Assembly (NCBI GenBank): GCA_948144175.1
Contig: CANXME010000532.1
Location: 2,173,001-2,237,000, forward strand
From: Closterium sp. NIES-65
Lineage: Eukaryota; Streptophyta; Zygnematophyceae; Desmidiales; Closteriaceae
Direction: 5' to 3'
DNA length: 64,000 bases
The notes under the pieces are model-generated. The model worked only from the letters and a program-made list of their open reading frames with translations. It searched no databases and was not told where the DNA came from. How positions within the stretch are numbered: the first letter of the stretch is position 1; every line of letters starts with the position of its first letter. Of this stretch, positions 3,501-51,192 are shown one piece after another. The position numbers were made by a program, and so were the translations under genes.

Positions 3501-6500
3501 GGAGAGGCGGGGGTGTGCATGGTCCTCTCTGCTCCTTTCCTATTGGGTTATTTTCAGCCCCGCTGTTCTCACCCAGCCCGCTCTCTGCCATCTTTCCACC
3601 CTTGCCTCCCTGCCATTGACAGGAGATGCACGGAGGAGGAGGGAGGGAGAGGCGGGGGTGTGCATGGTCCTCTCTGCTCCTTTCCTATTGGGTTATTTAC
3701 AGCCCCACTGTTCTCACCCAGCCCGCTCTCTGCCATCTTTCCACCCTTGCCTCCCTGCCATTGACAGGAGATGCACGGAGGAGGAGGGAGGGAGAGGCGG
3801 GGGTGTGCATGGTCCTCTCTGCTCCTTTCCTATTGGGTTATTTACAGCCCCACTGTTCTCACCCAGCCCGCTCTCTGCCATCTTTCCACCCTTGCCTCCC
3901 TGCCATTGACAGGAGATGCACGGAGGACGAGGGAGGGAGAGGCGGGGGTGTGCATGGTCCTCTCTGCTCCTTTCCTATTGGGTTATTTACAGCCCCGCTG
4001 TTCTCACCCAGCCCGCTCTCTGCCATCTTTCCACCCTTGCCTCCCTGCCATTGACAGGAGATGCACGGAGGAGGAGGGAGGGAGAGGCGGGGGTGTGCAT
4101 GGTCCTCTCTGCTCCTTTCCTATTGGGTTATTTTCAGCCCCACTGTTCTCACCCAGCCCGCTCTCTGCCATCTTTCCACCCTTGCCTCCCTGCCATTGAC
4201 AGGAGATGCACGGAGGAGGAGGGAGGGAGAGGCGGGGGTGTGCATGGTCCTCTCTTCTCCTTTCCTATTGGGTTATTTACAGCCCCACTGTTCTCACTCA
4301 GCCCGCTCTCTGCCATCTTTCCACCCTTGCCTCCCTGCCATTGACAGGAGATGCACGGAGGAGGAGGGAGGGAGAGGCGGGGGTGTGCATGGTCCTCTCT
4401 GCTCCTTTCCTATTGGGTTATTTACAGCCCCACTGTTCTCACCCAGCCCGCTCTCTGCCATCTTTCCACCCTTGCCTCCCTGCCATTGACAGGAGATGCA
4501 CGGAGGAGGAGGGAGGGAGAGGCGGGGGTGTGCATGGTCCTCTCTGCTCCTTTCCTATTGGGTTATTTACAGCCCCGCTGTTCTCACCCAGCCCGCTCTC
4601 TGCCATCTTTCCACCCTTGCCTCCCTGCCATTGACAGGAGATGCACGGAGGAGGAGGGAGGGAGAGGCGGGGGTGTGCATGGTCCTCTCTGCTCCTTTCC
4701 TATTGGGTTATTTTCAGCCCCACTTTTCTCACCCAGCCCGCTCTCTGCCATCTTTCCACCCTTGCCTCCCTGCCATTGACAGGAGATGCACGGAGGAGGA
4801 GGGAGGGAGAGGCGGGGGTGTGCATGGTCCTCTCTGCTCCTTTCCTATTGGGTTATTTTCAGCCCCACTGTTCTCACCCAGCCCGCTCTCTGCCATCTTT
4901 CCACCCTTGCCTCCCTGCCATTGACAGGAGATGCACGGAGGAGGAGGGAGGGAGAGGCAGGGGTGAAATCGATATGCCTTCGTAATGTCCAACTCACACT
5001 TGCACAAAGTCGTTGTATATGTGTCATCGCTGGGTGGGGTGTTGGTTATGACCCTGGCAGGTCCTATCGCGAACACTGGGATTGGGCCACCCATGGCGAT
5101 TTGTCGCTTCGAACTTGCTCCACAAGTACACTCGCGACCTGCCTTTCAGATGCTGCAGCCACAACATGCGCCAGCTGTAGCCAGTGCTCGGCCGACCGTG
5201 GGCAGATCTGGGGGACAGGGGCAAGTACCTACAGCCGCACCGTGCAACTCGGGCTGGCAAAACGCTGGAGAGACGGGGACTGCACCAGCTCCGCTACTGG
5301 CACATTCGTTAAACTCTGGCCGGTTGGGCGGTGCATCTGGTGAGTACAGCCAGGGCCAGAACCGTGTGAACCCGGGTGCTGCCAGCGCATCACGTCCTGC
5401 AAGCCCGAGCCCAGCCCATATCAACGGTTTCCCGGCTGCTTCCCAGCGAGCAGCCATCCCGAATGCCAGTGGTGCTAGGTCCGGCGCAGCAGCTTCACAC
5501 AGATCAACATCTTTTGGGGGGCAGCCTCCCCCTAGCATGATGCCTGGTAGAGGGGTCCACGTGCCTATAGCTGATGCGCACACTCCCCACCTTGGTTCCC
5601 CTGCCTCAGTAGGTCATGTACCGGGCGGCTCCTCAAGAAACCCCCCTGGGAGTGGAAATCTCGCGAGGCCAGGTGTCTCCTCTGGACACGGCTATGGTTC
5701 TCGTGGGGGCATGCATCAACCCACCTCCTCCCCAGGTCATGCGGCTGCTTATTCAGGCCATTCCAACCATGAGTTGGGCGCCATCCCCAATGGAATAGGT
5801 GGGCGTATCAGCGGCGGTGCACGCGCAGCAGCATCAGCACCAGCGTCTCCTGCGAGTATGGGACGTGCTCCAGTGGCACATGGACCGTCCGTCTCGCATC
5901 CGCTGAACCAGTCGGCCTCGGCCGGTAGTCGGAGGCCATTGGCTGCACCGAGGCCAAGACTCGGCATCCCCCTTGACCCGGGCCCTCGCCCAGTCGCATC
6001 GGTGGCAAAGAAAGCTGCGATGAATAAGTATGCAACGAAGGGGGATTTGGCTGCACTGCGAACGGAGTTTCTACAAGCTTTACAAGCTCACACTTGCCAG
6101 TGTGGAGCATCTGGAAGCCTGGGTGCTGCAGCAGATGGAGGCGAGAACAATGGAGGTGGTGCGGGGGTTCAATATAAACCAAAACCTCGCACGAGATCTG
6201 TGGTGGCCATTGCGTTGGATGCGGTGTTGGCCGAGCAAAAGGATTGGCGAGTAAGTTCAAACGCTTCCATCCTGTTATATTGCGTGTGTATCGGTGCATA
6301 ATACATCATTCCATCGTACACTATGAACAACTTACCTGCCTTCATGCTTTCTTGTCCCGATACACAATACTTTCGTGTCATGGCAGGGGGCGTGCAGTCA
6401 AGTGGTGACTTGCCTCTTCTGGACCGATGATGCAGTGGAGATTCAGTTTTACCCCAACACCGACGAGGCGCTTGGAGAATTCGCGAAATTACTATCCCCT

Positions 6501-8600
6501 AATGCTATGACCCATCTAAAGCTTCTTTGGAACCTAACAGTTGAATTCATCGTGGGGACTTTCAACAAGATGTGCAACACCAACAGAAGCAACGTCGCGA
6601 AGAAGCTACGAGCTGTTGTTTGGACAGCCCTGGGGAGCGTAAAGAAGCAACACAAGGTGGCAGCGCTTCCCATGGGAGTAAAAAGCCCTGAGGCCTTCTA
6701 TGAACACAAGGAACTCGCCCAATATTACATGGACGGTACGTCGCATGGTGAGGGAGAGGGTGAGGTGTGCGTGGGCCCGTAGCTACTCTCATCCCTTCCT
6801 CTCTCTCTGTCCTTATCTCCCCACCATTGGCAGGACACGCACAGAGGAGGAGGGAGGGAGAGGGTGAGGAATTTCCTTACCCGTAGCTACTCTCATCCCT
6901 TCCTATCTCTCTGTCCTTATCTCCCCGCCATGGGTAGGACACGCACAGAGGAGGAGGGAGGGAGAGGGTGAGGTGTGGGTGGGCCCGTAGCTACTCTCAT
7001 CCCTTCCTCTCTCTCTGTCCTTATCTCCCTGCCATTGGCAGGACACGCACAGAGGAGGAGGGAGGGAGAGGGTGAGGAGTGCGTGGGCCCGTAGCTACTC
7101 TCATCCCTTCCTCTCTCTCTGTCTCCTTATCTCCCCGCCATTGGCAGGACACGCACAGAGGAGGAGGGAAGGAGAGGCCGTGGTGTGTGTGAGCCTCCAT
7201 GCTGCTTGTATTGGGTTTGATTCATACCCCGCTGCTCCCCTCATCCTTTCCTCTCTAACTGTCCTTATCTCCCTGCAATGGGCAGGAAATGCACAGAGGA
7301 GTAGGGAAGGAGGCCGTGGTGTGTGTGAGCCTCCATGCTGCTTGTATTGGGTTTGATTCATACCCCGCTGCTCCCCTCATCCTTTCCTCTCTAACTGTCC
7401 TTATCTCCCTGCAATGGGCAGGAAATGCACAGAGGAGTAGGGAAGGAGGCCGTGGTGTGTGTGAGCCTCCATGCTGCTTGTATTGGGTTTGATTCATACC
7501 CTGCTACTCCTCTCATCCTTTCCTCTGTATCTGTCCTTATCTCCCTGCCGTTGGCAGGAAATGCACAGAGGTGGAGGGAGGGAGAGGCTGAGGTGTGCAT
7601 GGGTCTACATGCTGCTCATATTGGGTTTAATTCAACCATGGTATTGCTCTCATCCTTTCCCACTTATGTGCTTATCTCCCTGCCTTGGCAGGAAATGCAT
7701 GAAAGCAGATGGAGGGAGTGGCTGATGTGTGTGTGGGCCTCCATGCTGCAACTATTGAGATTGGTTTTATCTCATCCTTCCTCTCTCTGTCCCTATCCCC
7801 CGTCCACTGTCAGGAAATGCGCAGAGGATGAGGGAGAGATAGGCTGAGGTTTGCGTGGGCCTCAGAGCTGCTCACGCAGCCTTCTCTATCCTTATCTCCC
7901 TGCCATTGGCAGGAAATGCAGAGGAGGGAGGGGGAGGCAAAGGTGTGCGTGGGCCTATATATTGCTCCTCTGTGCATTGCCCTCGTCTCCCTGACGTTGC
8001 TCGAGATTGAACAGATCAGTGAAGAGCTTTGAAGATGTGTACATGGCTTTATTTTGCTCTTGATGGTGTAAACTCTACCCTCCTGCTCTCACCCTAAACC
8101 CTCGCTGTGCTCCTTTACCCACTCTACAGAAGAGATGGGAGGTTTACGTATCCATGTGGATACAGAAGACACGCAGTTGCCATTCTCCAGCAAAGCCTTT
8201 GCAGTGGGGATAAGACATGCATTCACACGGACCAATGTGACACTGGGGGCGTTCAAGACCCGTCAGATCGCGTATGCTGTTCTCGTGGTAAGAACAAGTA
8301 GACAGATAATGCGCAAGCATATTTATCGGCATCTAGCGGAGCTTAATTAAAATAATCGTTGTTTCCTTGCAGCTGGAATGTCCTCTATTGGAGGAAGAGG
8401 GCAGGATGACAAACAATCCTGAAGTCAACCGGGAAAAGTACGAGAGTACTGTGGTTAAGTGCAGGAAATGGGTGGAGCTAGCTGTCACCACCATGGGCGT
8501 GCGCTATGATTCACGCAAGAACGCATTCCTGTTCGGCAATGGTGTTTGTATCGACGCGAGCGACTACCCGGCATCGCTGAAGAAAAACATCACTGGGTAG
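1..8600 (+). CDS. Gene A: large protein of unknown function (5' end outside window), five visible exons
   Basis: I do not recognise this protein. Exons read as <1-1242, 5061-6250, 6387-6735, 8130-8287 and 8373-8600, with introns in phases 1, 0, 1 and 0. All junctions are GT-AG, the phases agree, and about 1054 residues are visible. Exon 1 is open from the first base: Gly/Glu/Tyr repeats, an acidic stretch (about 660-700), a basic KKAARKRGR cluster (about 850-880), then an RGG/RG-rich tract (about 920-1240) of the kind seen in RNA-binding proteins. Exon 2 is Ser/Pro/Gly/Ala-rich and probably disordered, ending in a short predicted helix. The last three exons have ordinary composition and look like the folded, conserved part. 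Gene D (49789-51192) shares the exon 6387-6735 in length, phase and key residues. The link of exon 1 to exon 2 rests only on phase. Introns 1 and 3 carry minisatellites. A simpler gene starting at the ATG at 4985 is possible. Confidence 0.6.
1260..4965 (+). repeat. 145-bp tandem array (about 25 units) filling intron 1 of gene A
   Basis: The motif GAGATGCACGG recurs from 1309 to 4931 every 145 bp, with a single 142-bp step at 2469-2611. This gives 25 full units plus partial units at both ends. Each unit holds a pyrimidine-rich stretch ending in CCATTGACAG|G and a second one ending in TTATTTTCAG|C or TTATTTACAG|C. Both resemble 3' splice sites. Because 145 is one more than a multiple of three, each unit opens a 142-codon ORF across three units; these overlapping ORFs are artefacts. 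Units at the left end alternate between two subtypes, while units at about 3690-4600 are nearly uniform, as expected from unequal exchange. Confidence 0.95.
6785..7970 (+). repeat. Degenerate tandem array in intron 3 of gene A
   Basis: A core with CCATTGGCAGGA followed by GCACAGAGGAGGAGGGAGG recurs near 6836, 6940, 7043, 7150, 7287, 7423, 7560, 7695, 7815 and 7914. The first units are about 105 bp apart and the next about 136 bp; later ones decay. The core is nearly the same as in the 145-bp array of intron 1, so both introns were expanded from related sequence. The intron (6736-8129) is otherwise free of coding signal. Confidence 0.85.
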
Positions 8601-9078
8601 AAAGTTTCCCTCAATGTTGGTAGTTTAGTGCGTAGTAATTTGGGATTAATAGTAGTTATTGTAGGTTCTCAATACGGTAAGATTCTGTAGTGTTTTTAAA
8701 AATACTATTTATTGTATTGAATGCTTATAACGAATATATGAAATAGCCATAAATAAGTATAAATAGTAGTTGTGATAATTTAAGTGCTACGGTCTATCAT
8801 GTAGCGAATAGTAAACGGGACATGTGAAATAATTGTTTTTTAGGTCCCGCGGATTCGGGCGAGCTGCGACGGAAATCTGACGGAAAACTCAAGGAATGCT
8901 CGAGCGAAATCTGTTGGTAAGCATCTGTCTGAAATCTGACTAGAAATCAGTTGGAAACATCATCGATCCAGTAGTGTGATTTCTGACGGAAGAATTTCAC
9001 AGTTTTCTGTCAGATTTCCGAGGGTCAAACAGAATTCCGGCCGAACGCGTCCAGTTTTCCGACTCTGCTTTTTGTGAT
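8601..9078. other. AT-rich intergenic stretch with an inverted repeat
   Basis: No gene is seen. The first 230 bases are AT-rich and follow the stop codon of gene A, so they may hold its 3' UTR. The rest contains several short copies of a GAAATCTGA-like motif in both orientations and the 151-bp inverted repeat listed separately. Confidence 0.6.
8870..9020. repeat. 151-bp foldback with 20-bp imperfect inverted ends
   Basis: The 20 bases at 8870-8889 (CGGAAATCTGACGGAAAACT) match the reverse complement of 9001-9020 at 19 of 20 positions. The interior repeats the same AAATCTGA motif several times. It could be a MITE-like foldback element. No clear target duplication was found beside the arms, so the class is open. 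Confidence 0.6.
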
Positions 9079-9962
9079 GCACGTTCCTGGACGTCGGATA
9101 CAACGCCCTCTCTGGCTCCTTCCCGTCCTCGCTACTCAGTCTCCCGCGTCTCATCGAAGCGCGCTTGCGCCACAACTCCCTAGCGGGAAGCTTCCCGACA
9201 GGCGCGGCCTCAACCAAGCTGACCCTCCTGGACATTTCCTGGAACGAATTGCGCGGCTCGCTGCCGACGCTCATAGCCAGCAGCACGAAATTATCGCACC
9301 TCAACCTGAGCCACAACCAGTTCACAGGGACCATCCGTCCCGAGTGGAGCTCGCTGGTCAGTCTCCGCTACATCGACCTGGGCTTTAACGACCTGACTGG
9401 ATTGATCCCCACAGCGTTCCAGGCGCTCACGAACCTCGATGCGTTCTACACGCCGCACAACCGCCTGTCCGGACCGGCTGTTGGCGCGTTCGCGTCGCGT
9501 GGCGACCACGATACGCGCTTCTTCCTGGACCTGAGCTACAACCGCCTGAGCACCGACAACCTGCGGCCGTTCGCCACGCTCTTCGACTTCATGGACGTCA
9601 ACTTGTCGCACAACGAACTGCGCGGCTCTGTTCCACGCCGCATGTTCCAGAACGCGTCCACGCTCGTGCTGGAAATGAGCTACAACAACCTGCAAGGCGG
9701 CTTGGATGAATTCATGGCACTCACAGGCCTCTGCAGCTTGATCCTCGCCGGGAATCATCTGTGCGGCAAGATTCCCGCAAAGATAAGCGACCTCTCGCGC
9801 GTGCAGCGGCTAGTGCTAGCGTGGAATGCGCTGTCTGGGAGCATGCCAGAGGCGGTGACGGCGAGCACGGCATCGCGAAATTCCGAGTTTGCACAAAATG
9901 TACACGGTAGCTTTCCTACGGGAAACCTTCGGAAAAGCTTCGGCGCGCACATTTACAGCTGA
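9079..9962 (+). pseudogene. Leucine-rich-repeat gene fragment, plant type
   Basis: The frame opens after an in-frame stop just before 9079 and runs to a stop at 9962, about 293 codons. It encodes roughly ten repeats matching the plant extracellular LRR consensus LxxLxLxxNxLxGxIP, for example LSHLNLSHNQFTGTI and LCSLILAGNHLCGKIP. In plants such repeats form the ligand-binding ectodomain of receptor kinases and receptor-like proteins. Here there is no start codon with a signal peptide, no membrane segment and no kinase, so the copy looks like an isolated ectodomain fragment. The final 30 residues leave the LRR pattern. It lies between gene A and the 3' end of the minus-strand transposase. It could be an exon of a larger gene whose other exons I cannot see. 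The LRR call is secure; the pseudogene call is an inference. Confidence 0.7.
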
Positions 9963-10096: not shown

Positions 10097-13000
10097 TCAG
10101 TCGATGAGTGCAAACCTATTGAGTAGCCTGACTCTAGGATTAGTAAAGGACTTGCACACGTGGACAATGCGCTCGATCGATGCAACTTCAATGATCCCGT
10201 GCGTGGCCTCCTTCCGCCCGGCACTAGTTGGGGGCAAAGTGTCTGGGGACACACCCCCTCCTCCTCGTAATACTTCACGAATACATATGCACCTTCCTCC
10301 CCGCTGTAGTTCACCGCCCTGAAAATACAGAGACACCACGCATACCACCACTCCTCCTCCTCCTCCTCCTCCTCCTTCTCCCTCTCTCCTGGTATTGCAA
10401 TGTCGGTGAACCAGTTCTCCTTCGGGCTTGCTTTCACGAACATCGCCTTCGGAACCAAGTACCCCCCTTTCGTGCTAGGGATGGCCACTGCGGTGTGCAC
10501 CTGCCAGGTATGGGTGGGTTTGCATGAGGACCAACGATGACGCCTCTTCACGTACGTGTCCAACACACAACGGCCCAACCTCTTTACAACCGAAGCCAAC
10601 AGCTTGATTACCGCGTTACTAACATGACACTGCATCTCACCAACACACGTGAAGTCTGAAGGCCTTCCACGGCCATGAGTGTCGCCATGTTGTCAAACTC
10701 GCTGCCCACCGTCTCCCTGTACATCATCCGCAGTGGATCGTCTGCCGTCATGAGACACATGGCCTTGCTGGTGCGGGTCAGCGCGGGCTTCATGTCAGAA
10801 TCCCAACCACTAGACCATTGGGATAAAAGGGCTTGTTTCAGTAGCGAGTCAGTGCGCCCATAACCCCCCAGGCAAATGCGCCTGTAACCCCCCCTAGGAT
10901 CGATCGGGGATCTCACAGTGTAGCTCTACTGACACCCCCTCACACTGGGAGGCCCAGGACTGAGCACAGTGGCAACGGCCAACAGTGGCGTTGTGTACCT
11001 CTCGCAAGGCGGTGTAGTAAGTTCTCCCTCCTCCTGACAGCGCTACAATCTCCCGAGTGATCTCGCGTTGCGTCTCCTCCTCGACAATCCTCCTTGGTAT
11101 GTCTTTCCAGTTGCTTCCGCGCACGGGGCCCTTCACGGTGCCCTTGTGGGTATGCTCCCACAGCTCCGTGGAATACTCGTGCGGCAAACCCCTCATGGAT
11201 ATGACGTTGATGAGGTGTACAACTTCGTGGAGCTTCACGAAGTTCCACTTCGACTTCTGCCTCAGGAAAGCCGCCTGCAGTGCAGCCACCAGTCTACACG
11301 GAGGTGTATGCACATTGTAATGCGAACATTGAAAGAATCACCACAGTGTACAACATGGCCAATGGTAGCAACGAAACACGTGGCCATCATGTTCACTCAC
11401 GAGATGCCATGCTGCCTCGCGATGGCGATTGTGAGCCGCGTGTGCTTTGTCACAGCCAGCAGGGACTTGTAGAAGACCGCATAGTAGCGGAAGGCACGAA
11501 CCTCCTTATCCCTCTGGTCCCTTTCCTCCGCAGAGCGCCCCACACACAGGTCGGAAATGACAATAGGGAAAACCTGCATCATGCCACGATACTCGAACGC
11601 CGCGTAATTCGCCCCGCTGCGAAAAAAGGTGGAGCCACCCGGGATGCGCACCAAGACACTCCTTGTCTCGCCCTTCACGCCAAACTTGCGGCTGTTCCAC
11701 GCACCAATCACACACAAGCAACGAGATTGAATTGTTCCCGTTGTGAGCTCCGCCACGTACGCACTACCGCATACAAAACAGTTCACGGAATCTATGTGTA
11801 CTCACTGATCAAACCCCCGAATCTCGGCCTTCGTCTTCCCCTCCATGAAACAGGTGGCCATATGCACCAGCACCCCGGAATCCAGCACATGCAATATGTC
11901 GCCAACAACCGCCAGGAAGACGTTACCCCACTTCGTCTCAGAGAAGTTCCAGCGCTCCAGGACGCTCTGCACGTTGGATGGTGCTGTCAAACTCATCATA
12001 AAAAGCAACATCAAGCCGCTACAATCATGGCCGCGGCCATGTGAGTTGCCACACACAAACATCGAACGCACACCATGATCGGATGCGTAGACCACCTGGC
12101 CTAGATCGCTGAAGCGCCTTCCACCATCGTAACGCTCCGTATCTTCGCCGCCGCGTGCCGCTCTCCCTTCACAGTGCGCACTATTGACTGGTTTGACAGG
12201 TCATGTAGGTGCGCCCTCTTGATGTAGCAGCTCGAGCACGGTCTGTGCGATGCCTGCTGCATCGTTGCTGTGGCCCGGCACCCTTCCGGATAGTCGCCAA
12301 CAAATGCATAAAGGCATGGATATGCCTTGACCACACCTCCCCGGCCGTCTGACACATCGAAGACTCGAAGAGGACCACTGCATGCACCACGTACATGTTT
12401 GATGGGTCTCAGAAACCGACAATGATCCCGTTCGCCTCCATCGGCCTAGAGCATGCATTCGTGTCAAACATTATATATGTTGTGTTAGTTTAGGCTATAG
12501 TGGGTTAGCGTATAGGGGGTACACAATTCTAGGGTTAGGTACTTGTACTCATTTCACTGCTAGTTCATTCATTCCTGTTCAGTGATTTCAACATGGTATA
12601 GAGCAGGTCCTTCCTAGGACCGAAATTTTCTAAGGGCCCACCACTACGTAACTACCTACCTACCTACCTACCTGTGCCCTAGGGCGCCTCGGCGTGTCAC
12701 GCCCCTAGAGGCCCCTCTTGACGGCCCCGCGCTAGCCCCGTTCAGGCCCCGTTGGCCCCACGCCCGCTCTCCCTAGCGGCCCCGTTCAGGCCCCGTCGGC
12801 CCCTTTAAGGCCCCGTTCAGGCCCCGCGCTAGCCCCGTTCAGGCCCCGTCGGCCCCGTTTCAGGCCCCGTCGGCCCCGCGCTAGCCCCTCTCAGGCCCCG
12901 TCGGCCCGCGCTAGCCCCGTTTCAGGCCCCGTCGGCCCCGTTTCAGGCCCCGTCGGCCCCGCGCTAGCCCCTCTCAGGCCCCGTCGGCCCGCGCTAGCCC

Positions 13001-16000
13001 CGTTTCAGGCCCCGTTGGCCCCGTTTCAGGCCCCGTCGGCCCCGCGCTAGCCCCTCTCAGGCCCCGTCGGCCCGCGCTAGCCCCGTTTCAGGCCCCGTCG
13101 GCCCCGCGCTAGCCCCTCTCAGGCCCCGTCGGCCCCGCGCTAGCCCCATTCAGGCCCCGATCGGGCCCGCGCTAGCCCCGTTTCAGGCCCCATCAGCCCT
13201 GTTCAGGCCCCGTCGGCCCCTTGCTAGCCCCGTCAAGGCCCTGTTTGGCCCCGCGCTAGCCCCGCTCAGGCCCCGATCGGCCCCGCGCTCGCCCCTCTAG
13301 GGCCCCAACCGGCCCCGTGCCGACCTCGCCGACCCGTGCCCACCACCTAGAGGCCCCCGGCGGCCCGTTCCCGCCGCAGCACACGAGGGAGAGCGGGCGG
13401 CCCGTCCACGCCGTGACCCGAGCCGCGCGACCCGAGCCGCGCGCCCCGAGCCGAGCAGCGCGCCCCGAGCCGAGCCGCGCGCCCTGAACCGAGCCGCGCC
13501 ACCCAGCCGAGCCGCGACCCGACCTGAACCGAGCCGCGCCGCCCTGCCCTACCTGGTTCGTCCTACCTGCTTCTTCTACTGCTACTGCTGCTATTTCTAC
13601 TGTTCCTATGGCTAGCCCACAGGTTCTCGTGTTCAATGCTGAGGGCCGCCCTGTGAAGTTTGACACCTGGCTCGATGACCTGCACCTCTACCTACAGCTC
13701 ACAGCCAAGGATGACATCTCACTGTACGATTACGCCCTAGGCCATGTCACTGCCCCTGCTGCTACTGCTGACAGCACTGCTCGCTCACACTGACAGACTC
13801 GTGATGCCCACGCTCGCTTCGCCATTCGCAACTCCCTGCCGATAGACGAACGCGAGCACTTTGGTCAGCACAAGACTGCACAGGCACTGTACACAGCTGT
13901 AGTTGCTCGCTACTCCTCACCTGCCTCTGCCGCACTAGGCCGTCTCTCCCTCCCCTACCTGTTTCCCGACCTGGCCTCCTTTCACACAGTCGCTGACCTC
14001 ATCACGCACCTCCGTACTAGTGAGGCCCGCTTCCGTGCCGCCATGCCTGCTGAGTTTCTTGCCACGCACCCCCCTCCACTCTGGCTCACTCTCTACCACC
14101 TAGTCACCCGCCTCCCTGACACTCTGCGTGCTGTCAGGGACCACTTCCTAGCTCGTTGCCCCACTGAGCTCACCATTGCCCTCCTCGAGAAGGAGCTACT
14201 TGCAGCTGAGACTAGCATAGTCGCTTTGGTGCCTCTCGTGGTGACCCCCGTACCCCGTTCTTTGAGGGGTGTTCTCCTTCCCCCCTTCTTCCCTCTATCG
14301 CCTCTGCTGCTGCTGTCGACCTTCTTGGTACTGAGAAGGTCGGCGCTGCGTCTGCCTCGAGCGGACGCCGCAGCGGTAAGGGCAAAGGGGGCAAGGGTGG
14401 TGGCGGTGACGGCGGGGGAGGCGGCGGTGGGGGCGGTGGAGGCAGTGGGGGTGGTGGCTCGGCTGGAGGGGCGAGTGGTAGCGGTGGGGGTGGTGGCGGC
14501 AGCGGCGGGGGAGGTGGCAGGAGTGGAGGCGGCGGTTGGGGTGGCGGTGGACGAGGCGGCGGCAGGGGTTGGGGTGGTCGAGGAGGTGGCAGCGGTGGTG
14601 GTGGCCGTGGAGGCACTGGCGGTGGCCAGGGCCAGCAGCACACTCCCTCGCCCCAGGAGGTCTGTGAGTGGTACTCTCAGCACGGGGGTGGGGGTGGTCT
14701 TAGCTGCACGTACGTCATTCGCACTGGTGACCGCACTGGTCAGCAGTGTGGACGACCGCACGCCACACAGCGCTGCTTCTCTCGTCTCGACGACGCTTGG
14801 CATGTTCAGTTCCCTCATGCCAGTGAGCTGCCCCGCTGGCTTGATCTCCTGAAGAAGGGGATTGATATCTATGCTCTAGACTTTGATGCTATTCTATCTG
14901 CCATGTATGTGATGTCTACTAGTGGAGAGGGTGCTGAGTACTTGTGTGTGCCGCCCGACCCGGGCATTAGGGCCAGTGCGTCTGCCGCTCCAGGTACTCG
15001 CGTGTCGGCTACCCCAGGTGCTGGTGAGGCTGCTGCTCTAGGTGCTCGTGTGTCTCCCCCCCTTGGTACTGCGTCGACTGCCGCACTGCACACCTTCACA
15101 CTGGACTCAGGTGCTTCTCGCTGCTTCTTTCGTGACCGCACTGCCCTTGACCCGCTTGCTCGGCCAGTTGCTGTCTCCCTTGCTGACCCCTCTGGGGGTC
15201 CGGTCATTGCGACCTCTTCCACTGTCCTTCCCTGCCCTGCGGTCCCGTCGGGCACACTGTCAGGTCTCCACCTCCCCTCGTTCTCTACGAACTTGGTGGC
15301 AGGATGTGCACTTCAGGACGGGGGTGTTCACCAGTTCACCCCTGCCTACGAGCGCGTGACACACTGCACGTGTGCTCGTACGGGCCGTCACTTGGCTACC
15401 TTCACTCGGCAGCCGGGGTCGGACCTGTACACACTGACTACTAAGTCCCCTCAGGTTGCTGCGACTGCGTCCGCGTCCGCGTCAGGTCAGCTGTCCGCCC
15501 CCTGCTCGTGTCGCTCTTTGGCACACGAGACTGTCCTCTGGCACCACTGCCTTGGCCACCCGTCTGTGCAGCGGCTTCGTGCCATGCACTCCCGGTACCT
15601 TGTCTCTGGCCTGCCCAGGGTCCTTCCTGCCCTCCCACCCTCGCCTGCTCCTACCTGTCTCCCCTGTGTCGAGGGACGGCAGCGCGCCGCTCCTCACTCC
15701 TCCTCGTTCCCCCCGACGAGTGCTCCCTTGCAGACACTCCACATGGACGTGTGGGGCCCAGCCCGCGTCCGTGGTCAGGGCCAGGAGAGGTACTTCCTGA
15801 TAGTTGTTGACGACTACTCGCGCTACACCTCGGTCTTCCCCTTGCGCACCAAGGGTGAGGTCCCTGATGTCTTGATCCCTTGGATCCGCAGAGCCCGTCT
15901 CCAGCTCAGCGAGCGTTTTCACTTGGACTTTCCTGTCCTGCGCTTGCACTCTGATAGAGGTGGTGAGTTCTCCTCTGACCTCTTGGCAGCCTACTGTGCT

Positions 16001-33651: not shown

Positions 33652-33656
33652 GCCCC

Positions 33657-34430: not shown

Positions 34431-34548
34431 TCTAACAGGAGCAACGCTCCATCAATATTGGTGGTCCTGGTACCATCTCCCATAAGGGCACAAAGACAAG
34501 TCGTGAGGCAATGTGAAGCATCGGCCACGGCAAATAACAGGACGGCCC

Positions 34549-36232: not shown

Positions 36233-36368
36233 TGTCAGAACATATATGTAGCTTATGCTGTTGTGTAGGCTACAGTGGGGTATCCCATAGGGGGTACAAC
36301 CCAATTAGGGTTTTGCTATTTGTACCCAACTCTTTCATAGTGCATTCATTCTCGTTCTATTTTCCACA
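36233..36368 (+). repeat. Solo copia LTR, family I
   Basis: 136 bp, beginning TGTCAGAACATATATG and ending TTTTCCACA, with the core AGTGGGGTATCCCATAGGGG. The target duplication GAGGC is at 36228-36232 and 36369-36373. No internal region is present, as expected after LTR-LTR recombination. Confidence 0.92.
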
Positions 36369-39407: not shown

Positions 39408-42400
39408 ATGGTACCGCGAACCAAATCCCAGGCCTCTAAACGCGGCCTCCATAGTTCACAAGCCATGACATCGCGTAGGCCACCGGCAGCGGTGCGGCGG
39501 GATAACACCACGATCCCGGAATTCCTGAGCAACAAGCGGCTGCGCTCGCGTGAACTCCAGCAGGGGGATACAAATACGGAGGCCGCAGTGGCCGCGTCGG
39601 TTTCCGCATGGGGCTCGCGGCTACCATGCGTCAAAGATGAGCCCGCGCCGAATGACGCGCTGACTGCTCTACTGAACGCACCATCTTCAATGACTTTTAA
39701 GACGGTGTCTCTGTATAACCACATGGGTGTGGGCTCTCAAGTGAATGCGCACGACGCCTTGACGCTTGCCGACAAGAAATATCTGGAGGACGCGGTCGTC
39801 GATTTCCATAACATGTACGTTTTTGGATGGCGATACTGAGAAAGGTTGAACGAGAATAGTGATGACTAAGTGAAAGTTGGGTACAAATGCAAACCCTAGA
39901 AAGCTGTACCCCATATGTGCTACCCCACTATAGCCTACAATAGCTATGTCATCTATATCTGACACACCCCCATAGGCAAAGTGGGGGAGAACAAGGGGTC
40001 ACAAGACCAGTCAAGCAAAGCAAAGCAAAGCAAGCTCAGGGTGGATCACAAAGTCACCACACAGTCCGAGCACAAGGTCAAGGCCACAAGGCCAGTTCAC
40101 ATGCAGGAGTGCACATATATATATAACACTAAACAAGCAAGAGCAGGTATATATATATATGCAAGAGTACAATTAAGATCAAGAGGTGAGCAAGTGAGGT
40201 AAGACAGGTACAAGTCCCAGCTGAGTGCAGAAGCGCTGATGATCACAAGGCGGAAGTGCCTTGGTGAAAACATCAGCAGTGTTGGCCTCAGAGGCCACGT
40301 ACGCAAGTCGCAACTGACCACGCTGCTGCAGCTCACGAGCAAGAAAGTAGCGGAGAGCAATGTGCTTCGTTCTGTGCTCCAGGCGCTGCTCTCGACACAA
40401 GGCCAGCATGGCCTTGTTGTCTACGTACAGCACTAGAGGAGAACGAGGCCGCTCTCCAAGGTCAGTCAGCAGGTAGGTGAGCCAGCGAAGCTCCTGAGCA
40501 GCCATGGCCCCGGCGTAGATCTCAGCCTCACAACTGGAGCCGAGAACAGAAGACGAGCGAGTAGCCCGCCACGAAACACAGCCCGAACCAAGACTGAAGG
40601 TGTAACCCTGTGACGACCGCTGAGTAGCCTGGTCGTCAGCCCAAGAAGCGTCCGCGTGCCCAGTGAGGACCACTGGACTCCGCCCTCCAAGCACTAGCCC
40701 CATGCCCGACGTACTGCACAAGTAGCGCAACACCCTCTTCGCTGCAGCCATGTGCTCTGGTCGGTGTCTCCCAGGAGCAACATAGCGTGCAAGAATGCTA
40801 AGAGGGTATGTAAGGTCAGGTCGTGTGCAGGTCATCAGGTACATGAGGCAGCCAACAAGCTCTGGGTACGGGCCACTCGACTCTATGGACTCATCCGAAG
40901 GCAGAGCTGAGAGCGAGTGGCGAGTAGACAGAGGAGTGGCCTGAGGCGAGGAGTACGTGAAGCCGAAGCGCTGAAGGACCTGCTGCACCATGTGTGACTG
41001 AGTCAAGGTAATGGTGCGTCGTGCTCTGTCCCGAGTGATCTGCAAGCCAAGGTAGCTGCGCAGTTCACCCAGGTCTGTGCACGTGTGTCTCTTCTGCAGC
41101 TCGGACTTCACGTAGGCGAGTCCAGCAGTGTCCGCTGTGGCAAAGACCAAGTCCTCAACGTACACGAGGATGTAGAACGGCGGCAGAGAAGTGTCGGTGC
41201 GCAGAAACAACGACGGGTCAGTAGTAGAGGGAGCAAACCCAAGAGCCGCAAGCGTGGTCCTCAGTGTGTCGTGCCACTCACGCGGTGCCTAGCGGAGACC
41301 GTGGACTGGTCGTCGGAGGCTCCACTGGGTGCCAGGAGGGAAAGTCCCAGTGAAGCCAGGTGGACGGCGCAGCCAGATCTCCTCGTGCAGGCTAACCTGC
41401 AAGAAAGCTGTGCTGAAGTCAAGAGAGTGGAGCTCGTAGTCGCGCTGAGCGGCTATGTGCAGCAGCACCCGAAGAGTGGTCATCTTCGGGGTGGGACAGA
41501 AGGTCTGAAAGTAGTCAACTCCCTGCCGCTGACTGAAGCCACGAGCAACGTACCGCGCCTTGAAGACAGGTGGAGAGCCTGGCGTCCGCTTCACCCTGAA
41601 GATCCACATGCCAGTGACGATGTTCGCCCCAGGAGGGGGAACCGCGTCAACGTAGGTGCCTGTGGACTTCCATGAAGCCATCTCTGCATCCATAGCTGCC
41701 TGCCACTGAGACGAGTAGGGACCCTCTACGGCCTCCGCATAAGAGCGCGGAGTCGGGATGTCTAGTGCATCCGGGTCTCCCTCAGGGGCAAGTAGTACGG
41801 ACGCGAGATGAGGTGAAGCAGCAGCCAGACACTGGAACTCCTCCTGCCTGTCCTCAAGGACGTCCGTGCCAAGAGCACACTCACCCCCGACGGACGGAGG
41901 ACAGACAGACGCAGACTCTGCAACAAGACTGGCAGCGTAGTCTAGACGACAGCGAGCAGCAAAGTCGACGAGCTCAACAACAAGCGCAGACGCAGCAGTG
42001 GACTCAAAAGAGGGGTCAGTGAAGACAGTAGCAAGGAGACGCGTGACAGTAGGACTGGCAGTACGGAGAGAGTCTGACTCTGGGTCGGCAAGTGCAGGAA
42101 GAGAGGACTCAGGAGGAGAAGGCAAAGGGGCACGCAGAGGAGCAGTGGACGGACGCAGAGACATCTGGTGGGTGCCAGGGACAGGAGGAGGACGCTGACG
42201 CGAACCGCGACCACTAGCGCGAGCAGCACGAACAGGCGACGCGGGACGAGACGCAGGCTCACGACGCTCAGCAAGACCTCCAGTAGGACCAGTGTAAAGA
42301 GAGGGAGCAGGAAGTGGGGAGGCGGGCTCTAACTATGACTGTAACGGGACAGGCGGTGGACACTCTACAGGAGGAGAAAGACCAAGAACCTGCTGCAAGA

Positions 42401-45400
42401 GCGGAACGAAGTACGGTCGAGGCCGCGCGGCAACTCCACACACAGCAGGGACAGCACCAGCACCCTCAGCGGCAGCACCAGCGCCAACAGCACCTCCAGC
42501 TGCAGGACCTCCAGCAGCACCAGCAGCACCCGCAGCAGGACCACCGCCAGGAAGGACAGCAGCAGTCTCAGCACCAACACCCTCAGTAGCACCAGCGCCA
42601 GGCGGACCCGAAGGCCCAGGAGCCCCGGGACCGGCAGCACAAGTACCCTCAGCGGCCGAAGAAGCTCCAGCTCCAGCAGTACGCCTCCAGCGGCGAGCAA
42701 ACCACTCGCGCAGCTCCTGTGGAGAGAGTGGCTCCCGCCGAGACCAAGCACCCGGAGAGCCTCCAGGCCCCGCACCGCCAGACGCCAGAAGGGGAGGTCC
42801 AGTGGCCGCAGGCTCCGCAACTCCAGGCTCAGCAGCACCCCCTGGCTCAGCAGCTCCTGACGTAGCACCCCCAGGCTCAGCACCCCCAGTCGCAGCACCC
42901 CCAGGCTCAGCACCCCCAGACTCAGCACTCCCAGGCTCAGCACCCCCAAGCTCAGCACCCCCAGGCTCAGCGCCCACGCGCGCAGCACCCCCAGAGTCAG
43001 CACCCCCAGGCTCAGCACCCGCAGAAGTACCAGAGTCACCAGCAACCTCGACCGGCTCGACTGCGTCTACCTGGGACACACCTGAAGGGGCAAGACCCTG
43101 AGGGGGAAGGGGGTCTACCTGGGGGGGACCTGGCACAAGGAAGTGCGGTGGCGGGGGGAGGGAAGGAGTGCGGTAGGGGAAGAGGCGGTAGAAGGGGACT
43201 GACTCGTCGAACGTGACGTCCTGGGAGGACAGAACACGACGAGAGGAGGGGTGGTAGAACTGCCACCCTGGGGCGTCAGGGGGGAAGCCTAGGAAGACAC
43301 AGGGAGCAGCACGAGGGGACAGCTTGTCCGCAGACAAGTCGCGGACAAACGCCCGAGATCCCCAGACACGGAACGCAGACGCATCGCCGACCTTCCCCGT
43401 CCACAGCAGAGCTGGGGAGGTCTCCGGCCGGGAGACCCTGGGGTGAAGGTTGATCTGATGCGCCGCGTACCGAACCGCAAACGGCCACAGAAAATGGGGG
43501 GCAGCCGCATGCATCATGGACGTACGAGCGACGTCCATGACCATGCCAATGCGGCGCTCAGCAATCCCATTTTGCTGTGGAGAGTCCGGAAGCGTAAAGG
43601 TCTGGCGGATGCCTCGTGCACGACAGTAGGCTCGCAGAAGGCCAGAGGAGAACTCTCCACCTCGGTCAGAGTGCAGACGCAGGACAGGAAAGTCCGAGCC
43701 GAAGCTCCTCCTGAGCTGGAGACGAGCTGCGCGGATCCAATCGATCAACACCTCAGTGACATCACCCTTGCTGCGCAAGGGGAAGACTGTGGTGTAACGC
43801 GAGTAGTCGTCAACCACCAGCAGGAAGTAGCGCTCGTGACCCTGTCCACGGACGCGGGCCGGGCCCCACACGTCCATGTGAAGCGTCTGCAGAGGAGCCT
43901 CTGTCGGGGGAAACTGGGAGGAGTGAGGGGCAGCCCGGAGCCGCCCCTCGACACAGGGGACACAGGAAGGTCTTGGCCCCGAAGGAAGGGGAGGGAGAGA
44001 CCGGGGGAGACCAGAGACAAAGACACGGGAAGCCATGCCCCGAAGACGAGGCAAGGAGGGGTGGCCAAGACGGTGGTGCCACAGGAGAGTCTCGTGAGAC
44101 AGGAGGCGACACGAGCAGGGGGCAGACTCAGGACCAGACCTGGACGCTGCAGCAAACACCTGACCGGACGCAGCTACCTGGCCAGATGTAGGGATAGGAG
44201 GAGACTCAGTGGTAAGGGTGTAGAGACTCGACCCCGGCCGACGCGAAAACGTGGCCAGGTGTCGGCCTGTGCGGGCGTCCGAGCAGTGGGTCACCCGCTG
44301 ACTCGCAGGAGTAAACTGGTGAACCCCCCCATCCTGCAGGTCAGCACCACTCACCAAGGTTGTCGAGAACGAGGGGAGGTACAGACCAGACAGGGTGCCC
44401 GAGGGGGTAGCCGGACACGGGAGGACAGTGGAGAAGTGAGAGAGGACAGGGCCCCCAGAGGGGTTAGCCAGGGAGACTGCAACCGGCCGACCAAGCGGCG
44501 TGAGTGTGGTGCGGTCTCGAAAGAAGGAGCGAGAAGCCCCTGAGTCAAGTGTGAAGGTGAGGGAGGCCGAAGCCGACGCAGTACCTGAGAGCGCAGCCTT
44601 ACCAGCACCTGAGAGCGCAAACGCACTGGCACCTAGAGCAGCAGCCTCACAAGCACCTAGCGCAGCAGTACCAATGCCTGGGTCGGGCGGGAAACACCGG
44701 TATCAGTCACCCTCATCACTAATAGTCACAGCATACATGGCAGCAAGGATAGCATCAAAGTCAAGATCAAAGATAGCTACGCCAGCCCTAGACAGCTCTC
44801 CCCAGCGGGGAATCTCACTAGCCTCGGGGAACTGCTGACGCCAAGCGTCCGTCAGGCGGCCAAAGCAGCGCTGGGTGGAGTGGGCACCCCCACACTGCTC
44901 ACCCGCGCGGTCGCCGGAACGAAGGACGTAGGTGCACGGACCAAAACCCCCACCACGCTGACGTTGCGCGTACCACTCACGGAGCTGCTGAGGCGGGGGG
45001 ATGTCCCGAGAACGCAGATGCTGCTGCTGTTGCTGGCGCTGACCACCACCAGAGCCGCTCCGCTGCGGGGCACCACCCCGACCAGCTCCACCCCCTCCGT
45101 CACCGCCGCCTCCACCTCCGCCACCACCGCCGCCTCCGCTCCCACCGCTGCCGCCGCCACCGCCTCCGCCTCCGCTGCCGCCACCACCACCACCACCCCC
45201 GCCACCACTCCCACCGCCACCCCCACTCCCTCCGCCGCCTCCACCGCCACCTCCACCGCCCCCGCCAGCTCCACCCGTGCCCTTGCCCCCCTTGCCCTTG
45301 CCAGGTCGGCGTCTCCCGCTAGGGGCAGACGCCGCGCCGACCGACTCAAGACCAAGCAGGTCGGCAGCAGCAGCAGAGGCAACAGAGGGCAGCAGGGGGG

Positions 45401-48400
45401 AAGGAGAACACCCCTCAAAGATGGGGGTGCGAGGGTCACCCCGAGAGGCTCCTACAGCAACGATGCTCTTCTCCGCCGCAAGGAGGGCCTTCTAGAGGAG
45501 GTCAACAGTGAGAGTGGTAGGACAGACTGAGAGAAAGTGGTCCTTGACTACGCGAAGGGAGTCAGGGAGGCGTGTGACTATGTAATAGAGAGTGATGTAC
45601 ATGGGAGGAGGGTTCTTGGCGCAGAACTCAGCAGAAAGTGCGGCGCGGTAGCGAGCGTCACTAGTGAGGAGGTGCGTAATGAGGTCGGCGACTGTGGGAA
45701 AGGCAGCAAGGTCAGGAAAGAGGTACAGTAGCATGAGGCGGCTCAGTGCAGCAGTGGCAGGAGAAGATTAGCGCGCAACTACAACGTCGTACAAGGTCTG
45801 AGCACTCTTGTACTGACTAAAGTGCGCGCGCTCAGTGGTAGGCAGGTGGCGACGCACAGCAAGACGTGCAGCAGCATCGCGGGTGGCCCACTAAGAGCGA
45901 ACAGTGGGGTCAGCGTCAGTAGCAGGGGCAGGAGAGGCGCCAGAGGTGAGGTCAAAGAGAGAAAGACCGTCCGCCCTATCGCACTGTAAAAACAGCTGCA
46001 GGTCGTCGACCCTGACCTCAAAGTCAATGGCTCGACCCTCAGCGTCAAAAGTGAGGACATTAGGGGTAGCCATGACGACGATAGGCTAGCAGTGCAAGCA
46101 GTAGGAGAAGGGCACGCTGTGACAGTGGGGCTGCGCTCACTGGACAGGGCAGGTCGGGCGGCTCGGTAGTAGGGCGGCTCGGCTGCTGGGCGGCTCGGCG
46201 GCTGGGCGGCTCGGCGGCTCGGCGCTCGGCTGCTGGCCGGCTCGGCTGCACAGCGTCTCGGCGGCTGGGCGGTCGGCTGCTGGGCGGCTCGGCTGCACAG
46301 CGGCTCGGCTGCTGGGCGGCTCTGCTGGTGGGCGGCCGGGCGGCTCTGCAGCTGGGCGGCCCGGCTCCTCCGGTACTCGGCGGCGCGGCGGTCGGCTGCT
46401 CGGGTGCACGCTGCTCAGGAGAGTGGCAGGGCCGCAGCAGACGGGCGGCGGGGCCCCAGGTGCAGGGCGGCGGGGCCGCAACAGAAGGGCGACGGGGCCG
46501 GTAGAGTCGGGCGGCGGGGCCGCGAAAGCAGGGCGGCGGGGCCGCTAAAGCAGGGCGGCGGGGCCGCGAAATGAAGGGCGGTGGGGCCGCGAGGTGTTGG
46601 GCGGCAGGGCCGCTAAAGCAGGGCGGCGGGGCCGCGAAGTGTAGGGCGGCGGGGCCACTGAAGCAGGGCGGCGGGGCCGCTAAAGCAGGGCGACGGGGCC
46701 GGGCGGCGGGGCCGCTAAAGCAGGGCGGCGGGGCCGCGAAATGAAGGGCGGCGGGGCCGAGAAAGCAGGGCGGCGGGGCCGCGAAGTGTAGGGCGACGGG
46801 GCCGCTAAAGCAGGGCGGCGGGTCCGCGAGGTGTAGGGCGACGGGTCCGCTAAAGCAGGGCGGCGGGGCCGGGAAAGCAGGGCGGCGAGGCCGCGAATCA
46901 GGGGCGGCGGGGCCGCGACAGTAGGGCGGTAGGGCCGCTAGGGGAGGGAAGGCCGCTAGGGCGGCTCGTCGAGTTAACAGCCCGAGGCGCGACTCGGGAT
47001 GAGCGCGCTTCGGGCAGTAAAAAAAAGTCGAAGTGGTGGGCCCTAGGCGCAGTTCCCACAGGGGAACCTGCTCGATACCATGAGAAAGGTTGAACGAGAA
47101 TGGTGATGACTAAGTGAAAGTTGGGTACAAATGCAAACCCTAGAAAGCTGTACCCCATATGTGCTACCCCACTATAGCCTACAATAGCTATGTCATATAT
47201 ATCTGACAGATACTCCTACAGGTTGCTTTGTCGCCACCCTACGGTATGCCGACTTTAACGTTTAAACTTTCATCGTGCGTTGTCCCTTCGCACCCGTGCA
47301 GCCTCCTGAACATTAGGTACCCAAGGTGTCCGAACGGGAAATCATGGGTGGTCCCTGACAGCAAGGCGTGTGCGTATGCCAAGATTAACGGGAAGTCGAT
47401 TGGGAGGTGCATGGGCCCGTCTGTGTTCGAGTACAATTACATCGCTGTTCCGGTATTTGCTGGGTAAGTATGTCTTTTGCCCGCCGCTGTTATAAGCCCA
47501 TCTGTCGCCTCAGCCTAACAAAGACCCCTCAATTGTGCAGGGAACACTATTCTTTGATGGTGGTAACCAACCCGAGCGGGATTGTAAGCCAGACGGCCGC
47601 ACCTGAGGAGTTCATTCTATTCGACAGTGACGGCCTCCACGCCAAGAATACTGATGCCTTTGACGGGAGTAAAGCGTGAGAGTCGCTATATACCACCGTG
47701 CAACCCCCTTTCAACGGTGACGTCCTGCGACCTCATCTGACCTGTTGGCTATATCGTCGTGCAGGTTATTGCACCTCATGTGCAAACGCGATCATCCGGA
47801 GGTGGACCAGGAGGCGTCTAGGCAAGCGCTCATCAAGGCCGAAACGATAATCATGGAGGTGAGATGTTGCAAAGACAGTATGGCTCATTCTATCCCACTT
47901 GCTTGCTAATACGGGAGCGCGTTCTGATGAACGGAAACATCGTGTCTCGATGGTGCGCAGGGTCACCAGATCCCCAAACAACCTAACAGCTGGGACTACG
48001 GAGTGTACATGTGCCAGTATCTCGAAGCTCTGGTGACATCTGGGTTCATAATCGTGAGAGAGTACATATCGTTCAAGGGCGTGAGCGCTGAGAGGTACCG
48101 CCACAAGATGCGTGGGGATCTTTGTTCTCATGCTGAGGGAACGCTGATTCCCGAGCTGCAGCGCCAGGGTCTCCGCATACCTCTGCAGCCTGTTCCCGTT
48201 ATCGACGACAACGGATACATATGCGTCGACCCTCCTGTGGACATCCAAAGAGAGCTGCTAGACCACAAGGAGAAGTTCGCTGTGATTGAGCACGGCATAC
48301 AGGTTCTAACGGCCAAGATCGAGTATCTAGCCATCCGCAAAGGCGTGACGTCGGACGAGCTAGACGCAGGGGCGCGCCAACACCTGGGTGCCGTGGTCGA

Positions 48401-49253
48401 CACGTTGGTGCCGACGGCAACTCCACGCAAGCACGCCAAAGCAGAACCTACCGCGGACGGAAGTGGCCAGATGGAGGTCGCGCGGACTCCTTTGACGCGT
48501 GCACTGGCGGCAGTGCCATCAATCTCTCCCTGTCCTGCACCTCACACACCTGCCGTGAAAGATAGCCAAGTTACTGCCGGCGACGCGACACCAGCTGTGG
48601 TCAGGCAACAACAGCGCGGCCATCTTGCACTGGCTTTGCGCAGCCGCGCTACGACTCCCGTGCCCGCAGCTCCAGGTAACCCCGGAAGGGTCGCAAGCAG
48701 CGGCCGAACGGGAGTTATGTGGAACGCAGCGAAGCAGAGGTACTACGTCCGGATCATATCTGCTCGCCGTCAGCAGGTTCGTTTGGGTTCGTACGAGGAC
48801 AAGGACGAAGCGTCATACGCGTATGCTGCGGGAGCCGTTGTACTTCGCCCGAACTCACGCATCAGCTGCACGGTGGAGCTGTCCGACGGTGACAGGCAGG
48901 CTTTAGCCGGCTGCACCGAGGAGATCCTAAGGCTACTCGTGAAGTACAGGCGCTGGAACAGATGGAGGGAGTGGAGAGCCGCAATGGCTGGCCTGGACGA
49001 TGCACAGCCGGTCGAGACCGGTTCGCGGCGAAAGGGCAGAGTGTCCCGGGCCATTAGTGACGTTGAGGAGGTGGAGGCGACCACGCAGACTACAGAGGAC
49101 CAGCCTATGGCTGAAGAGCCAGAGGATCCACCAGAGGACTACACGGATGACGATGAGTCCGTTGACGATGATGCTGTGTATGAACCGGGAAACGATGATT
49201 TCGACGAAGAAGATGACTGGGAGGATGTCAACCGTGCAGAGGGTGATGCCTGA
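39408..49253 (+). CDS. Ulp1-type SUMO protease-like protein with Tyr at the nucleophile site, fused to an AP2-like domain
   Basis: Exons are 39408-39814, 47302-47463, 47541-47675, 47765-47858 and 47961-49253. Intron phases are 2, 2, 2 and 0 and total 2091 nt (696 residues). The start ATG sits in AGCCATGG. Ulp1/SENP enzymes are cysteine proteases that process or remove SUMO with a His-Asp-Gln-Cys set. Here the set reads His192 in GEHYSLMVV, Asp218 in FILFDSDG, Gln273 in IPKQPNS, and Tyr279 in WDYGVYMC where the family has Cys (codon TAC). The domain is therefore probably inactive or binding-only. Residues about 513-565 (nt 48699-48857) match the AP2/ERF pattern: SGRTGVMWN, YYVRI, VRLGSYEDKDEASYAYAAGA. 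The C-terminus is very acidic. Intron 1 holds the copia element 39837-47208; without it the intron would be 110 bp. Ulp1 domains also occur in KDZ and other DNA transposons. Confidence 0.75.
39837..39964 (-). repeat. 3' LTR of element 4
   Basis: 128 bp, reading TGAGAAAGGT...ATATCTGACA on the plus strand. The conserved CCCCCA/TGGGGG hairpin borders its inner end. Confidence 0.95.
46140..46960 (-). repeat. GC-rich tandem repeats in the leader of element 4
   Basis: GGCGGCTCGGCTGCTGG-type units at about 46140-46380, then units of about 20 bp of the type GGGCGGCGGGGCCGCTAAAGCA to about 46960. Noncoding leader. Confidence 0.85.
47081..47208 (-). repeat. 5' LTR of element 4
   Basis: 128 bp and about 98 percent identical to 39837-39964. 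The primer site adjoins it and GATAC flanks it. Confidence 0.95.
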
Positions 49254-49788: not shown

Positions 49789-51192
49789 ATGCGGTCTGAG
49801 ATGCTATCTCCGCTAGAGGTCGATATGACTCCCACCGACGGCGGTCGTTCCAAGCGGGCGAAGACTGTGCCGTCATGGTTAGCTGATTCATATGAATACG
49901 GGGAGCGGAAGAAGAAAGGACGACGCCTACCGGAACCCAAGAGGCATAAAACAAGCACAGAAAAATGTGGCGCGGAGGATATGAACGCGGGGCATGACGA
50001 AGGTAACATGTGTGACGTGACAAGTACGTTGCATTTCATGTACCAGTGCTAATGCATGACTATGGTGAGATATGCCGTATGCGCACGCAAACTTAACACC
50101 CTTCTACCTACCACGCACCTGGTCACAGAGACTCGAGAAGTGCCGCTGCAGATATGCAGCACCAAGGCTGTCGGGGCCGTCGACGCGGAGGCAGCCTGCA
50201 CGCCCATTGTCGCCAGCGCACCACAAGGGGACTTATACACCGAGGCCGTGAAGGAACGCCTGATAGACGAGTTAATGAAAGGCGAAGATGAGGACGACGA
50301 GGAGGGAAACGGTGGTGGTCAGTCGTCAAGCAACGATCCGTGTGGCGAGAACGGATCAGAGGAGGAGCAGGCCACAAAAGCGCCACATTCGAGGAAGCGG
50401 ATAGAAGCAGCCGATGGCCAAGTCACACGCGAGGAATTTGATGCGTTGCGTGATTCCCATAATGATACTGCGAAGACACTGGCTCGTCTGGAGTCACACG
50501 TACTAACCATCATCCGCCTTGGCGAAGGGCGTAAGCGCAAGCGGGCGTCCACAAGTGCCGCAGCCTCGCTCGGCCGGGAAGCTTCGACGCAGAAACGCCA
50601 GTCAGATGATGACGAAGAATCCACGTGCGATGAGGACGAGTTGCCGGCGAAAGTGGCACGGCACGCGCGTCACGACAAGTCGCTAGTGCTCCAAACCGCC
50701 CTTGACATCCTTCCAGCGGAGAAGGCTTGGAAGGTGAGGCCTCGCATAGTGTGTTCTGCTCACCTCGTGGCACAGTTGTTGGATGCACTACATATCTCGT
50801 CACCGTGTTCCCCCCCCCCGCACAACTATTTTCATTGTCGCAGGGTGTTTGCGACATGGTTAAGGATCATCTGTTTCTAGAAGCCCCGAACGAGAAGATG
50901 GACTTCTATCCGAGTCGCGACGCCAAAAACGCCGGCCTATGCCATGTCGTGTCCACCATTTCTCCCAAAACTGCGACTCTGGCGTTAGACGCGGATAAGG
51001 CTCGACGGCAGGATCTGAACAAGACCTTGTCCGAGTACAAAACAGGGTTGGCCGGTCGCGCTCGCGGAGTTTTTCTTCCACGAATTGGTCTTTTCCGTGA
51101 CGACGAGGACAGGGCAAGTCCTTGGGCACGTAAGACGGAGCGCACTGGGGAGCGTGCCCGAAAGAGATATTGCGTCCCCGTCCCAGACGATG
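49789..51192 (+). CDS. Gene D: paralogue of gene A, unknown function, 3' end beyond the window
   Basis: Exons are 49789-50002, 50129-50733 and 50844-51192, with phases 1, 0 and 1 at their ends; 389 residues are visible. The N-terminal half is charged and probably nuclear: basic clusters (SKRAK, GERKKKGRR, GRKRKRAS), long acidic runs and a helical segment REEFDALRDSHNDTAKTLARL. The join at 50733/50844 reads ALDILPAEKAWK|GVCDMV. In gene A the matching join is ALDAVLAEQKDWR|GACSQV, also phase 0, and the following exon is exactly 349 nt in both genes and ends in phase 1 after an Asp codon. Both exons carry an FYP motif about 20 residues in. After the donor (ATG|GTGCGT at 51193) the intron is interrupted by a copia element from 51309, so the remaining exons lie outside the window. 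Reading on without splicing gives a stop at 51275. Confidence 0.65.

Follow-up and report, generated by a model that had tools for sequence, protein, structure and literature searches.

Two predicted genes in a 64,000-nucleotide stretch of DNA (the window), genes A and D, each contain an exon of 349 nt, and the original prediction read them as paralogues, an old family held together by gene structure and with no known domain. The locus raises the questions of whether A and D are related, whether gene structure or sequence ties them together, and to what kind of genetic unit they belong.

Genes A and D share sequence similarity around a common predicted intron

The features of the locus are collected in Table 1, in which all splice sites of A and D are predictions from sequence. 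The proposed gene structure was borne out: both exons measure 349 nt and are open in the proposed frame, and each follows a phase 0 intron and ends in an Asp codon plus one G. The residues after the junction read GACSQV in A and GVCDMV in D, as had been quoted, and FYP, placed near residue 20, occupies residues 21-23 of both exons. The large exon of A has a low-complexity N-terminal part, and the start of the gene is placed there only tentatively. Gene D is interrupted downstream of its 349-nt exon by a copia-like LTR that begins at 51309; the window yielded no second end for this LTR. Upstream of A lies a long open frame with Gly/Arg/Glu-rich repeats (3-1242, plus strand; no Pfam match for 3-1241); an intron linking this Gly/Arg-rich frame to gene A was considered and is not proposed, as the obvious donor is out of phase.

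Table 1. Coordinates of predicted genes, tandem arrays and insertions in the window
Feature	Position	Strand	Remarks
Tandem array, 25.6 copies of 145-bp unit	1260-4965	.	Upstream of gene A's first large exon
Gene A, large exon	5150-6250	+	Open frame; phase 0 end in ...ALDAVLAEQKDWR
Gene A, 349-nt exon	6387-6735	+	Phase 0 in, phase 1 out
Gene A, intron 2	6736-8129	+	Mostly 104- and 136-bp tandem arrays (6750-7749)
Gene A, next predicted exon, 158 nt	8130-8287	+	Phase 1 in, phase 0 out; acceptor and donor located
Gene A, last predicted exon	8373-8600	+	Stop codon at end
Plavaka-type transposase, additional piece on the far side of another copia insertion	12101-12445	-	PF18759
Copia insertion	12462-19832		Target duplication ATTCG
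Plavaka-type transposase, N-terminal half, several predicted exons	19836-20998	-	PF18759
Copia insertion	20999-33651		Target duplication GCCCC
Copia insertion nested in 20999-33651	26814-31863	+	Target duplication GCGCG
Insertion	36233-36368		Target duplication GAGGC
Ulp1/C48-like gene, predicted first exon	39408-39814	+	Frame and donor reading
Copia insertion	39837-47208		Target duplication GATAC
Ulp1/C48-like gene, further predicted exons	47302-49253	+	PF02902 (Peptidase_C48)
Gene D, predicted first exon	49789-50002	+	Frame reading; within ORF 49762-50052
Gene D, exon before the 349-nt exon	50129-50733	+	Phase 0 end in ...ALDILPAEKAWK
Gene D, 349-nt exon	50844-51192	+	Phase 0 in, phase 1 out

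We compared spliced queries made up of the final stretch of the upstream exon and the 349-nt exon (A, 152 aa; D, 159 aa). BLASTP aligned them at 31.6 bits, with E=1e-6 for this single comparison and 29 of 113 residues identical. The Smith-Waterman score was 72, whereas 10,000 shuffles of D averaged 27.0 (sd 4.4) and peaked at 56, with a fitted Gumbel p of 9e-7; A against reversed D scored 24. Among the six-frame ORFs of the window (at least 25 aa, omitting those that overlap the query's own exons), no other ORF reached 72 with either query. The best of 1404 scored 46 with query A; with query D, the top score among 1418 was 56, from A's own unspliced exon, and the best unrelated ORFs, from copia-region frames, scored 52 and 51, so that a score of 72 stands out less against the window as a whole than against shuffles. 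In the alignment, the predicted introns of the two genes sit at the same residue. A and D are thus related, as judged from sequence, around a common predicted intron, and the proposed paralogy with a conserved intron position stands.

The signal comes from a stretch of some 62 residues that spans the junction. Global alignment of the full 349-nt exons exceeded chance (z 5.58 and 5.16, with 0 of 5000 shuffles as high in each case), and the local score of the two exons alone was 43, equalled in 5 of 2000 shuffles. The part after the SP dipeptide was not significant by itself, either globally (z 1.74; 273 of 5000 shuffles as high) or locally (z 1.47, 502 of 5000; with a softer gap cost, z 1.04, 819 of 5000), and the upstream coiled-coil-like segment showed no similarity between A and D (z 0.21). 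An ungapped comparison finds identity at 12 of 116 positions (permutation p 0.033), and to its total score of -33 the first 30 residues contribute +36 and the remainder -69; this indicates that the equal exon length conceals compensating gaps. No third copy was found among the six-frame ORFs of the window, from which an intron-split copy could escape (best other BLASTP E 0.89, profile E 1.4).

Donor sites were scored with a matrix of textbook frequencies, on which all donor scores depend. The 349-nt donor of D ranks first of 26 GT sites (7.31, followed by 7.27 for an exon of 286 nt), and that of A ranks second of 17 (7.31), below a site scoring 8.27 that would give a 361-nt exon ending in a minisatellite. 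Among donors scoring at least 4 (five in A, two in D), 349 nt is the sole length in common. We infer that the two exon lengths would agree by chance in a few per cent of cases, which is supporting but not decisive; equal length alone is weak evidence because A has rival donors, one of them with a higher score. Of the description as an old family held together by gene structure, the old paralogy is supported, but gene structure as the main tie was overstated, since the case is carried more by the sequence spanning the junction than by the equal exon lengths, which add only a little information.

It could still be argued that the similarity is a chance match picked out of a large number of exon pairs, with the equal length a coincidence of splice choice, given the lack of significance of the second half of the exon, the few identities in the ungapped comparison, the competing donors of A and the scores of unrelated ORFs with query D. 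The E value of the spliced pair, the failure of every other ORF to reach 72 with either query and the coincidence of the intron position in the alignment make this explanation highly improbable.

Domain, homologue and structure searches

Pfam-A gave no match for either 349-nt exon, for the 611-aa predicted protein of A or for A's last two exons, and a sub-threshold match to BMFP only for the predicted protein of D, in its upstream part (E=0.014; 16.3 bits compared with 37.2). Gene A had no match in PDB or IMG/VR, and its 349-nt exon (exon 2) had none in GTDB genomes or phages; the alignment of the A and D exons found no relative in IMG/VR. PHROGs returned nothing for the 349-nt exon of A or D or for the larger exon of gene C. 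As a single query, D was run against Pfam and PHROGs only. The claim that no known domain is present accordingly holds for A (Pfam-A, PDB and PHROGs) and for D (Pfam-A and PHROGs), apart from the sub-threshold BMFP match in D. The AlphaFold2 model that paired exon 2 of A with that of D had a mean pLDDT of 42.9, too poor to use.

We found no member of the A/D family in the libraries searched, where algal proteins are few beyond the coverage of Pfam-A. IMG/VR, GTDB, the phage set, PDB and PHROGs comprise viral, prokaryotic or solved-structure entries, and the pattern scans catch mainly close relatives, so the misses tell little about algae.

The sequence around A and D

Much of the window consists of copia-type retrotransposon sequence and LTRs. 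RVT_2 was found in pieces of three insertions (E=2e-23; 1.2e-49; and 1.4e-16 and 2.5e-21 in two pieces of one insertion), a fourth was labelled copia by gag and integrase matches, and the remaining copies were assigned by repeat similarity and by eye. The nested copia insertion has long LTRs, gag and integrase, and its long ORF gave no reverse transcriptase match. Target duplications of 5 bp flank all five insertions checked (four bounded by LTRs and one solo LTR), which suggests that the non-copia sequence they split was once contiguous. The copia insertions came after the sequence that carries the Plavaka transposase, the Ulp1-like gene, A and D. For the non-copia part we infer the order A (+), an LRR fragment (+), a Plavaka transposase (-), coding pieces (-), gene C (-), the Ulp1-like gene (+) and D (+).

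Gene A is convergent with the transposase, which is itself split by copia insertions and whose first codons apparently lie at 33674-33652, across one of them. A 90-aa piece at about 20.1-19.8 kb matched PF18759 above the gathering threshold (E=1.4e-6; 28.2 bits compared with 26.3) at profile positions 105-187, and the piece at about 12.4-12.1 kb, below that threshold when taken alone (E=6e-5; 22.9 bits), matched positions 205-263. The two pieces are thus colinear on the profile, and joining the first half to its upstream exons gave E=1.5e-12. Other pieces ascribed to the transposase (four and a further two) gave no Plavaka match, and one of the four matched WKF at E=0.2. Plavaka/EnSpm elements end in TGT..ACA or CATCA..TGATG and make a target duplication of 2-3 bp, according to the portion of PMC12730594 drawn on here. 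Among 77 exact 11-base seeds in the seven non-copia stretches, we recognised no terminal pair of inverted repeats, a search judged by eye with no shuffled control and in a window beyond which the ends of the element may lie.

The predicted first exon of the Ulp1-like gene gave no Pfam match alone, and a copia insertion would sit in the intron that follows it. The exons from 47302 matched PF02902 at E=1.9e-7 (31.6 bits; cut-off 20.7), and the gene ends about 0.5 kb upstream of gene D on the same strand. Its best sequence match in PDB was SENP7 (E=0.015), whose SSDCGVY aligns with SWDYGVY here. A Tyr codon (47997-47999, plus strand) replaces the catalytic Cys of the D-C-G motif, and to judge from this substitution the protein has probably lost its protease activity. 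The segment 48696-48974 (plus strand) in the C-terminal part resembles an AP2 domain by eye; the label was dropped, as Pfam gave no AP2 match and the structure model of this part reached a mean pLDDT of only 40.8.

Several other pieces lie among these genes. An LRR fragment with no obvious start (9078-9959, plus strand; LRR_8, E=7e-19) stands between A and the transposase, directly preceded by a 20-nt inverted repeat (8870-8889 and 9001-9020; 95%). Upstream of the transposase, 33652-36232 (minus strand) holds open pieces of at least one gene, and all four that were searched lacked a Pfam match. Gene C (37139-38565, minus strand) has two predicted exons encoding 407 aa and gave no Pfam match.

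The tandem repeats are tied to gene A. The 104- and 136-bp units of its second intron are related to the 145-bp unit upstream (70-80% identity over the aligned parts). Outside the two arrays, BLASTN found no match to the units in the window at E<=1e-3, and with up to two mismatches all 35 matches of one core motif and all 32 of another fell within the arrays; no such array was found beside gene D. The units of both arrays (1260-4965 and 6750-7749) contain an acceptor-like CAG behind a pyrimidine-rich stretch.

A viral source for these genes, whether an endogenised giant virus or some other insertion, has a parallel in Amoebidium, where Plavaka clusters and giant viral insertions share one genome (PMC11244446). 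Scans of IMG/VR, a kind of scan that picks up chiefly close relatives, gave none for A, the A/D alignment, the larger exon of gene C or the Ulp1-like gene. Introns are predicted in the genes, and the non-copia pieces given to Pfam included no viral hallmark domain. We regard a viral origin as scarcely credible.

Candidate roles of A and D and comparison with known systems

With a Plavaka transposase beside A and an Ulp1-type gene beside D, both missed in the original prediction, the likely meaning of the pair changes. We give even chances to the reading that A and D are diverged members of a single gene family that serves a Plavaka/CACTA-type DNA transposon in an accessory role; pieces of this transposon would, as part of the same reading, form much of the non-copia sequence of the window. 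It is suggested by PF18759 in two colinear pieces, together with PF02902, between the copia insertions, and by precedents in the portions of the literature drawn on here: CACTA elements with ULP1 regions, described as common in plants and not found in Arabidopsis or Medicago (PMC2528002); Plavaka and EnSpm elements of fungi that carry an accessory TET/JBP gene (PMC12730594); and VANC genes, which have tandem repeats in their introns (PMC5735166) and in some cases Ulp1 (PMC5735166, PMC13317346). EnSpm-Plavaka elements are also reported in the green alga Auxenochlorella, in the part of PMC12633428 used here. Several observations argue against the transposon reading: no terminal repeats were recognised, and the co-mobility of A and D with the transposase is hypothetical; the tandem unit occurs only at gene A, with no such array by D; the LRR fragment intervenes between A and the transposase; only two copies of A/D are known; and the structure models of the paired A and D exons and of the C-terminal part of the Ulp1-like gene are too poor to use (mean pLDDT 42.9 and 40.8, respectively).

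If A and D are such accessory genes, their protein would be a helper that associates with DNA; as judged from sequence, its N-terminal part would be disordered or basic and its domain mainly helical. By binding repeats within its own element, the protein would aid transposition or shield the element from silencing. The Ulp1-like protein, its protease activity probably lost, may only bind.

A and D could instead be an ordinary lineage-specific host gene family, with the transposase and the Ulp1-like gene as chance neighbours in a repeat-rich region. The four predicted exons of A are open and have usable splice sites, the 77 seeds judged by eye yielded no recognised terminal repeats that would tie A to the transposase, a fragment of an LRR gene lies nearby, and Ulp1 genes also occur as ordinary host genes. 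Set against this, the non-copia neighbours that can be named are a Plavaka transposase and an Ulp1-like gene, both with precedents in mobile elements, and one fragment; A and D lack an above-threshold Pfam-A match, though many orphan host genes also lack one. We consider a host family possible but somewhat doubtful.

Should the family travel with Plavaka elements, it would be an accessory gene family for which Pfam has no model. It would then also be a candidate for a second example of transposon-encoded helpers whose introns are laden with repeats, one from outside the flowering plants should the source be an alga. If it is not borne by a transposon, A and D would make up a small family of orphan genes within a region rich in repeats.

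The transposon reading invites comparison with three known systems. The locus resembles Plavaka/EnSpm (CACTA) elements in its PF18759 transposase, convergent with gene A, and differs in that no termini or target duplication of such an element were recognised here. A and D are not among the accessory genes named in the portion of PMC12730594 drawn on, and the pieces searched against Pfam gave no TET/JBP match. It shares with the CACTA-ULP elements of grapevine and rice, as the part of PMC2528002 used here presents them, an Ulp1-like region near a CACTA-side transposase; in contrast, Ulp1 here stands as a gene of its own, has Tyr in place of Cys, and is only putatively part of the same element as the transposase.

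The likeness to VANC of VANDAL (MULE) elements is organisational only: as far as the VANC literature drawn on describes them, these accessory genes have variable regions, introns that hold tandem repeats and, in some cases, Ulp1. In contrast to VANC, A and D gave no DUF1985 or DUF287 match in Pfam-A, and the transposase here is Plavaka rather than MULE. It is conceivable, though we think it unlikely, that A and D represent a new family of sequence-specific anti-silencing or DNA-binding proteins from Plavaka transposons that would be analogous to VANC and non-homologous to it, with the arrays within and next to gene A (145-, 136- and 104-bp units) as its putative targets and the Cys-less Ulp1 as a putative partner. 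In the part of that literature used here, the Arabidopsis VANC anti-silencing genes carry large tandem arrays, and gene A does likewise.
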